Below are positions 4,888 to 27,858 of a stretch of 64,000 nucleotides of DNA, piece by piece. Made by a program: the position numbers and the translations under genes. Each line of letters opens with the position of its first letter. Position 1 is the first letter of the stretch. Below the pieces are notes generated by a model. The model worked only from the letters and a program-made list of their open reading frames with translations. It was not told where the DNA came from and did not search any database. The DNA comes from Natronorubrum texcoconense (GTDB lineage: Archaea; Halobacteriota; Halobacteria; Halobacteriales; Natrialbaceae). Location of the stretch: contig NZ_FNFE01000006.1 in the NCBI RefSeq assembly GCF_900100335.1, positions 1 through 64,000 of the forward strand, in the 5' to 3' direction.

Positions 4888-5130
4888 GCGGTGGCGCGCG
4901 CTGTCGATCGTGTCCGAGCGAAGCGAGGTTCGAGCGGAGTGAGAACCTCGGAAAGAGAACGGTGAACGGAGTGAACCGTGAGCGACAGCGAGGGCCGATC
5001 GCCTACACTGTGCGAGGACGTCGCGAGTAACACGAGCGACTGCGTGGAAGACGCGAAGCGTCTTCCTATGAATGAGCGAACAGCGTGAGCGAATCGGCTG
5101 GGGAGGGCGTGGAAATCCCTGTTGCCAGTA
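4888..5130 (+). repeat. Dispersed intergenic stem-loop element, copy A
   Basis: Copy A begins with GCGGTGGCGCGCGCTG (4888-4903) and ends with the block GAGCGAATCGGCTGGGGAGG (5087-5106) plus GTTGCCAGT. Between them is an enlarged stem-loop: GCTGTCG (4900-4906) pairs with CGACAGC (4983-4989). Nested inside are GAGGTTC/GAACCTC (4925-4931/4943-4949) and ACGGT/ACCGT hairpins. A further hairpin with a GAA loop lies at 5047-5065. The same conserved blocks occur at 5244-5378 (inverted), 46547-46682 and 63127-63225. Confidence 0.7.
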
Positions 5131-13636: not shown

Positions 13637-13707
13637 TGGGTGCTCGAGCGGTATCGTCGACTCGCGACACGCTCGAGAGCTCGAAGTGATGTTGGTCGTC
13701 AGAAATA

Positions 13708-13797
13708 GGGTGGGACAGATTTGAACGACGCCGAGACGTTCTTGCTCGCCCCCTTCGGTCGCTGCGCGAACTGCGACTCGTCTCGTTCAAATTGCCC
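13708..13797 (-). repeat. Diverged tRNA-Val 3'-end fragment with inverted partner
   Basis: Plus-strand GGGTGGGACAGATTTGAAC (13708-13726) differs by few bases from the 3' end of the tRNA-Val gene at 14027-14046. An inverted, also diverged copy (GTTCAAATTGCCC, 13785-13797) lies 58 bp away, so the unit folds as a long hairpin. It is the outer of two such units downstream of the tRNA gene. Confidence 0.7.
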
Positions 13798-13915
13798 GGA
13801 CAATGGTTCCAACGCAGACTCGTCGTAGTTCGAAAGGCGCGGAGCATCTTTTGTCATCACGAAACGGCGAAGCCGCTCTGAACGACTCCGCACCTCATTG
13901 TTACGTCGGTAAATG

Positions 13916-13982
13916 GGGTTGGGGCAGATTTGAACCACGGTCGTTCCGCTTCGCTTCACTCCCTGATTCAAATCTGCCCAAC
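13916..13982 (-). repeat. Exact 20-nt copy of tRNA-Val 3' end with inverted partner
   Basis: GGGTTGGGGCAGATTTGAAC at 13916-13935 is identical to 14027-14046, the last 20 nt of tRNA-Val (acceptor 3' strand plus most of the T arm). An inverted copy, GATTCAAATCTGCCCAAC (13965-13982), follows after 29 bp. Duplicated tRNA 3' ends are classic attachment-site scars of tRNA-targeting integrases, but the short spacing and the inverted partner are unusual. Confidence 0.8.
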
Positions 13983-14026
13983 GTCACGATCCTGTCGCTC
14001 GCGAATTTGCTCGCGACAGAAGTAGT

Positions 14027-14100
14027 GGGTTGGGGCAGATTTGAACTGCCGGCCTCCTCCATGTCAAGGAGGTGTCATAACCAGACTAGACCACCAACCC
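14027..14100 (-). tRNA. tRNA-Val (GAC anticodon)
   Basis: Minus-strand cloverleaf of 74 nt. Acceptor GGGTTGG pairs with CCAACCC, the anticodon stem CCTCC/GGAGG encloses loop TTGACAT (anticodon GAC), and the T arm is GGCAG-TTCAAAT-CTGCC. CCA is not encoded and there is no intron. Read 5' to 3' it points away from trpD, and its 3' end faces two tRNA-fragment repeats. Confidence 0.95.
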
Positions 14101-27363: not shown

Positions 27364-27518
27364 GCCCGGGTGGCTTAGCTGGACATAGCGCCGCACTCAT
27401 AGGGTTCAGAGATTCGGTGCGGTTTCGCCTTGGAAGCCTCCGTGTCCCCGCGAGGACTCATGCCGAGCCTCGGACCTGGGACATGCGGAGATCGAGGGTT
27501 CGGAGCCCTCCCCGGGCA
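27364..27518 (+). tRNA. Elongator tRNA-Met (CAT) with intron
   Basis: GCCCGGG (27364-27370) pairs with CCCGGGC (27511-27517). Anticodon stem CCGCA/TGCGG and loop CTCATA-A hold anticodon CAT (27398-27400). An ~81-nt intron (about 27402-27482) interrupts the loop after position 37, the canonical archaeal site; haloarchaeal elongator tRNA-Met is known to carry such an intron. Exon 2 has the T arm GAGGG-TTCGGAG-CCCTC. Intron ends are placed from loop geometry and may be off by one or two bases. Confidence 0.93.
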
Positions 27519-27570
27519 TGCTTCTCAACACATCACGAGTCGAAGACGAGTGATAACACTGAGAAGCATG
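27517..27570 (+). repeat. 11-bp inverted repeat abutting the tRNA-Met 3' end
   Basis: CATGCTTCTCA (27517-27527) and TGAGAAGCATG (27560-27570) are perfect inverted repeats separated by 32 bp. The left arm overlaps the last tRNA base. It could act as a processing or termination structure, or be one unit of the fragment array that follows. Confidence 0.6.
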
Positions 27571-27651
27571 ACTGGTTCGCTCCGAATCCGTAGGTCCTCG
27601 AGAGTGAACGCAGTGAACGATCGAGGGCACGGAAGAGCGAAGCTCTTCCGG

Positions 27652-27740
27652 GGGTTCGGAGCCCTCCCCGGGCATTTTCCCAAGAAGCAACGAACGTAGT
27701 GAGTGACGACGCTGGAAAATGCCCGGGGAGGCGGAGAACC
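27652..27740 (+). repeat. tRNA-Met 3'-end copy inside a strong hairpin
   Basis: GGGTTCGGAGCCCTCCCCGG and the next bases (27652-27675) repeat the last part of tRNA-Met (27496-27519) exactly. An inverted copy lies at 27714-27740, giving a 17-bp perfect stem (27664-27680 with 27714-27730). Just before it is a second hairpin with GAA loop, GGAAGAGC/GCTCTTCC (27631-27649). Confidence 0.8.
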
Positions 27741-27781
27741 CGGTGGTCTTCGCGAGTGAGTGAAACGAACGAGCGAAGGCT

Positions 27782-27820
27782 CGAGAGAGCTCTGCTCTCT
27801 CGTAGGTTCGGAGCCCTCCC
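27782..27820 (+). repeat. Third, diverged tRNA-Met 3' fragment with hairpin
   Basis: AGGTTCGGAGCCCTCCC (27804-27820) repeats the T-arm part of tRNA-Met. It is preceded directly by the hairpin CGAGAGAGC-TCT-GCTCTCTCG (27782-27802), in the same arrangement as the second fragment. The acceptor part has decayed (CTCGAA instead of CGGGCA). Confidence 0.7.
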
Positions 27821-27858
27821 TCGAATCCGACTAAAAGTCGTCGTACGCTACCGGCTTC

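Follow-up and report, generated by a model that had tools for sequence, protein, structure and literature searches.

The window, as the whole stretch of 64,000 bp analysed here is called (contig NZ_FNFE01000006.1, positions 1 to 64,000), comes from the genome of Natronorubrum texcoconense and contains an intron-bearing elongator tRNA-Met gene followed by an array of two cassettes. Each cassette consists of a first hairpin, an inverted copy of part of the tRNA 3′ end (I), a second hairpin, and a direct copy of the 3′ end (D), and an inverted copy stands after each of the first two direct copies, giving the order D-I-D-I-D (Table 1). In the window, the tRNA-Met gene was not called by Rfam at its cut-off or by ARAGORN, which probably missed it because of the intron. 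The same order is found at the tRNA-Val gene (array at 13706-14025), in agreement with a preliminary description of this DNA in which two unrelated tRNA genes shared one architecture. The covariance model R1, which was built without tRNA-Met, matches tRNA-Met cassette 1 with an E value of 0.005 in 64 kb; R1 does not recognise cassette 2, whose assignment to the family rests on its anatomy. Only tRNA-Val reached an Rfam 15 gathering score in the window, with no family for the arrays, and a cmscan search with the complete Rfam set (E up to 1) gave only sub-threshold miRNA models for the tRNA-Met array and no match to RtT RNA.

Table 1. Features of the two tRNA arrays in the window and copies of a separate repeat in the same genome
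Feature	Coordinates	Strand	Basis
tRNA-Val (GAC), second array-bearing tRNA of the window	14026..14100	-	ARAGORN, Rfam
tRNA-Val cassette 1, 111 bp, terminal D2 at 13915-13935	13915..14025	-	R1, 101 bits
tRNA-Val cassette 2, 209 bp, terminal D3 at 13706-13726	13706..13914	-	R1, 39.7 bits
Elongator tRNA-Met (CAT), intron-bearing, array host	27364..27518	+	sequence
D1, tRNA-Met nt 53-73, segment recurring downstream	27498..27518	+	
tRNA-Met cassette 1, hairpin 1, TGCTTCTCA...TGAGAAGCA	27519..27568	+	fold; R1 match 27517-27674, 19 bits
tRNA-Met cassette 1, inverted copy I-1, pairing partner 27651-27661	27580..27590	+	fold
tRNA-Met cassette 1, hairpin 2, two stems: 27596-27626 (GCA apex), 27630-27650 (GAA apex)	27596..27650	+	sequence, fold
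D2, tRNA-Met nt 53-73, exact copy	27654..27674	+	sequence
tRNA-Met cassette 2, hairpin 1, TTTTCC...GGAAAA, inside part of the 18-bp stem	27675..27719	+	sequence
tRNA-Met cassette 2, inverted copy I-2, TGCCCGGGGAGGCGGAGAACC	27720..27740	+	sequence comparison
tRNA-Met cassette 2, hairpin 2, two stems: 27745-27779, 27782-27802	27745..27802	+	sequence, fold
D3, tRNA-Met nt 53-67, truncated copy	27806..27820	+	sequence
Separate repeat copies (L279, L276, L278, L275)	C10:235.0 kb, C9:87.1 kb, C3:50.45 kb, C3:700.7 kb		own genome

The 3′ end of tRNA-Met (27496-27519) is repeated exactly at 27652-27675, as first noted, and tight-loop hairpins lie at the positions originally given, with the sequences GGAAGAGC-GAA-GCTCTTCC (27631-27649) and CGAGAGAGC-TCT-GCTCTCTCG (27782-27802). 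The partial third copy is also present; it is exact over 16 nt (27805-27820) and starts one base later than the 27804 originally reported. The stem formed by the second copy is 100% complementary, and it joins 27663-27680 with 27714-27731, making it 18 bp long rather than 17 (27714-27730). The preliminary description did not include the inverted copies, the start of the copied segment at tRNA position 53, or the targets without a tRNA that are described below.

Within the genome, 44 tRNA genes (43 from Rfam plus tRNA-Met) were searched for copies of their own 3′ ends with one local-alignment threshold (score of at least 24, within 500 bp). A direct copy lies downstream of 31 of the 44 genes and upstream of 1, where the copy belongs to the array of a neighbouring tRNA, a tandem duplicate; in controls that took the 3′ end of a different tRNA as the query, 91 of 880 were positive. 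Units are 97 to 210 bp long, mostly 97 to 157 bp, and share the plan hairpin 1, I, hairpin 2, D. The consensus of hairpin 1 is approximately TTTCTGYSGC-GA-ACAAnnCGT-GA-GCSRCAGAAA, with a T-run at the start in many units; that of I is GGATTTGAAC plus tRNA-specific bases, and hairpin 2 often has the form GAAGTCGCAGCG...CGACCGTCTTC. Hairpin modules are common to different tRNAs (at least 18 nt shared by 19 of 39 units, versus at most 14 nt in shuffles), and recombinant combinations of hairpins 1 and 2 occur among the tRNA-Gly units. The genome also holds a separate repeat, with at least four copies away from tRNA genes, in which a hairpin-2-like module (GGAAGTCGCAGCC...GGAACGTCTTCC) is followed by TTTTNATCGAA.

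The match between D and its tRNA rises from 29% identity at nt 51 and 61% at nt 52 to 84 to 100% at nt 53 to 68, and is 74 to 97% up to nt 73, with background values beyond; the units were picked for their D match, so the level of this profile is biased and its edges less so. D is therefore nt 53 to 73 of the tRNA, 21 bases reaching from the edge of the T-loop to the tRNA end, and this start is the one predicted for a tyrosine recombinase that crosses over in the T-loop. I best fits the local tRNA, with a mean fractional rank of 0.06 against 39 other 3′ ends. Hairpin 1 and the I:D pairing covary in an alignment of 18 units, from which the structure itself was derived (score,.367 versus.199 when shuffled and at most.121 when slid). 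Recurrent one-base insertions (TTCA[C/T]AATC), which would bulge from the I:D stem, were seen in the D copies at L036, L037, L039, L041, and L062.

Tandem GA/GA hairpins number 86 in the tRNA sense and 0 in the antisense in 65 units (44 in 39 units of this genome and 42 in 26 units of relatives), and this restriction to one strand indicates that the tRNA-sense strand is the one that folds. Among the GA/GA hairpins with three-base loops, 21 of 26 have the loop form GNA. Stable DNA mini-hairpins are the best-known setting of GNA loops and PyGAPu pairs, but RNA too can form G-A hairpins and GNA loops. A K-turn bound by L7Ae was considered for hairpin 1 and rejected, because the positions next to the tandem GA alternate between A-U and G-C like an ordinary base pair, so that the 3-nt bulge is absent. 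Elsewhere in the window, four tandem GA/GA hairpins are clustered at 4900-5090 (+), with no tRNA found nearby.

It is improbable that the units arose by mutation without any element, D and I being products of slippage and of template switching at the palindromic T-arm that gene conversion then made uniform. Such an origin would agree with the way I tracks the local tRNA, with the hairpins, which favour template switching, and with the recombinant hairpin combinations at tRNA-Gly, but it does not explain why unrelated tRNAs have modules in common, why the G-A hairpins are conserved, or why the units occur in haloarchaea only.

The R1 model matches 57 of 61 genomes of the same order. In a sample of the phylum it matches 52 genomes, all of that order, and 0 of roughly 240 others; G154, a member of the order in this sample, has no R1 match. 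A sequence pattern matches more than 116 GTDB stretches, and all 80 of the matches listed are haloarchaeal. Most R1 matches have a same-strand tRNA no more than 600 bp upstream (41/45 in G001, 44/49 in G019, and 43/51 in G029; 84 to 91%), and units follow 27/43, 24/41, and 31/46 tRNAs in these genomes and 59 to 70% of tRNAs in four genomes, with low-scoring units undercounted by R1. Arrays are thus not restricted to the two tRNAs of the window, nor do their units lack a common structure; shared structure occurs at most tRNAs and across the order. No copy was found at any of 15 tRNAs tested in each of two haloarchaea of 48% GC, G154 and G045 (0/30), and the arrays are therefore dispensable. Two matches lie on plasmids, both directly behind tRNA or tRNA-like genes. 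At one of these sites (L360; Natrinema thermotolerans plasmid CP031304.1, about 235.3 kb), the unit follows a tRNA-Glu-like gene whose anticodon region is interrupted by roughly 30 nt (an intron or a broken copy) and which has no ARAGORN call. A search of a phage collection gave no unit match. Carriage by viruses was considered from four IMG/VR pattern matches, which have no tRNA or unit around them and were read as chance.

Units also occur behind protein genes. Three lie at C4:169 kb (168.9-169.25 kb, L282) and one at C11:8.6 kb (L283), behind paralogous genes whose products end in QDWDGYRFEPV, followed by the stop codon. The last codons of these genes mimic a T-arm (CGGTTCGAACCG / CGGTTCGAACCGGTC), which points to a DNA target rather than a tRNA function.

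Arrays differ between congeners. At tRNA-Met, the module order is A-B in N. texcoconense, B-A in G001, A in G004, and B plus others in G003; the array is decayed in G002, G006, and G008 and displaced by an integrated element in G009. A 129-bp unit at C10:219.1 kb of N. texcoconense has an exact empty site in G001, and a 112-bp unit of G001 has an exact empty site at C5:101.0 kb of N. texcoconense. In the one species pair compared, the extra units are sometimes not the tRNA-proximal ones and polarity is mixed; the filled and empty pairs fit gain or loss by D x D recombination alike.

The main rival reading, which we judge unlikely, is that the units form a tail beneficial to the host, a transcribed structured RNA or terminator in which I sequesters the tRNA 3′ end, or vice versa, and tunes maturation, termination, or a regulatory RNA. 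A regulatory role has reportedly been suggested for the RtT RNA of Escherichia coli tyrT. The presence of units behind 59 to 70% of tRNAs could also reflect a host function, and their occurrence in nearly all sampled haloarchaea, the covarying sense-strand structure, the fit of I to the local tRNA, and the T-run that often opens hairpin 1 all favour one. This reading loses weight because some species do without the units and because turnover is fast: in two low-GC haloarchaea none of the tested tRNAs has a copy, the same tRNA can be without units in congeners, and unit number and type differ at one tRNA. The units behind protein genes and the absence of an Rfam family match count against it as well.

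Integrated elements separate some arrays from their tRNAs. An element of about 54 kb in tRNA-Glu (C2:904.2-958.7 kb of N. texcoconense) splits the tRNA from its array, which now stands 54 kb from the gene, behind a remnant of tRNA-Glu. A second element, of about 6 kb and with an integrase-like reading frame, splits tRNA-Gly from its array (C3:303.2-309 kb). The element in tRNA-Met of G009 (C5:87.1 kb, L259) has no unit at its junction. About 10 of 17 orphan R1 matches in G001, G019, and G029 have a tRNA on their strand 5 to 28 kb upstream, a distance in keeping with displacement of the arrays by integrated elements. Displaced arrays 5 to 54 kb from their tRNAs, the use of these tRNA 3′ ends by integrated elements, and a typical crossover at the T-loop or 3′ end might suggest that each D is the attR scar of a virus or plasmid decayed to about 100 bp. 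We consider this improbable, since the units have a homologous interior with a covarying structure and a similar size, unlike the outcome of random decay, the G009 junction lacks a unit, and there is no phage match. Less probable still is that the host maintains the copies as decoys or buffers that draw integrases away from the tRNA; D copies do hold the 3′ part of known integration sites, and integrative elements do hit tRNAs of this genome, but the displaced arrays indicate integration at D1 in the tRNA and not at the copies.

The reading we prefer, with a probability of roughly one half, is that the two units of the array are copies of a short mobile cassette that is non-autonomous and specialised for T-arm sites in tRNAs. 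Here we infer an enzyme, a single-stranded DNA substrate, and a direction of change. A site-specific recombinase would cross over at the T-loop; tyrosine recombinases are known to cross over either there or at the 3′ end when they use tRNA genes (PMC8371274). The part of the tRNA upstream of the crossover would stay, and a 21-nt copy of the downstream part would flank the insert, leaving the tRNA intact. Pairing of I with D would rebuild a double-stranded T-arm site within one folded strand, and the substrate may therefore be a folded single DNA strand, comparable to the attC hairpins of integrons. Arrays could be made and reshuffled by repeated insertion together with deletion between D copies, and the match of I and D to the local tRNA might be upheld by selection for functional sites, hairpin-templated correction, or conversion. 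No recombinase or autonomous copy for the cassettes was found in this analysis; units of 97 to 210 bp are too short to encode an integrase of their own. We know of no free or circular form of the cassette. The original proposal of a small non-autonomous element that captures or targets tRNA 3′ ends is largely supported, with targeting the best reading; movement and an enzyme are putative, and the element may either have captured the tRNA end or have inserted next to it.

By the features tested, the units fall outside the RtT, SMR, integron, and integrative-element families. The E. coli tyrT locus is said to carry distal repeats of 178 bp with 19-bp copies of the tRNA-Tyr 3′ end and to produce RtT RNA. 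The resemblance lies in a tandem arrangement after a tRNA gene, with its 3′ end repeated in every unit, but the tyrT repeats concern one locus in one bacterium, whereas the present units follow most tRNAs in nearly all sampled haloarchaea and also have an inverted copy and covarying hairpins. SMR-A of Haloquadratum walsbyi is a non-coding, multicopy element of about 110 bp with strict palindrome targeting and enigmatic mobilisation; it has inverted terminal repeats, makes no target duplication, and inserts in palindromes of IS605-type elements and PATEs (PMC3119063). The units resemble it in size (about 110 bp), in being non-coding, haloarchaeal, and present in many copies, and in their strict preference for a palindromic target. 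They differ in that folds and alignments show hairpin 1 and D at their ends in place of a terminal inverted repeat, in that 21-nt direct repeats of the target flank each unit, and in that the targets identified are tRNA T-arms, also palindromes, or a T-arm mimic. Integrative elements that target tRNAs by archaeal tyrosine recombinases, such as those of the SNJ2 type, also cross over in the 3′ portion of a tRNA, leave it intact, and are flanked by direct repeats; they are kilobases in size with their own integrase, unlike the non-coding units of about 100 to 150 bp (PMC8371274).

The comparison extends to integron gene cassettes with attC hairpins (PMC3053210). In both systems the cassettes are tandem, and each is closed by a palindromic site able to fold on a single strand. 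Such a palindrome is present at the cassette end here, as an I-hairpin 2-D hairpin with covariation and with GA hairpins in the sense strand only, and the extra base in several D copies resembles an extrahelical base. Unlike integron cassettes, the units have no integrase gene, attI, or ORFs, lie directly behind tRNA genes, and target any tRNA T-arm, with the core GTTCRAAY versus GTTRRRY in integrons. A bolder proposal, which we hold only as a tentative possibility, is a new archaeal recombination system in which tRNA genes would be docking sites for tiny hairpin cassettes that move, integron-like, as folded single-stranded DNA, with I:D pairing rebuilding the T-arm site for a putative enzyme.

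No earlier description of the element family was found in the open literature, and one may exist in subscription journals. The units seem to represent an undescribed element family behind most tRNA genes of haloarchaea, and the R1 model makes this family testable genome by genome. If the cassettes are mobile, they imply a new recombinase recognising T-arm sites, and integron hairpin cassettes would have an archaeal counterpart; if the cassettes are functional, they would add a new layer at tRNA 3′ ends. Either reading is relevant to the frequent use of tRNA genes as integration sites.
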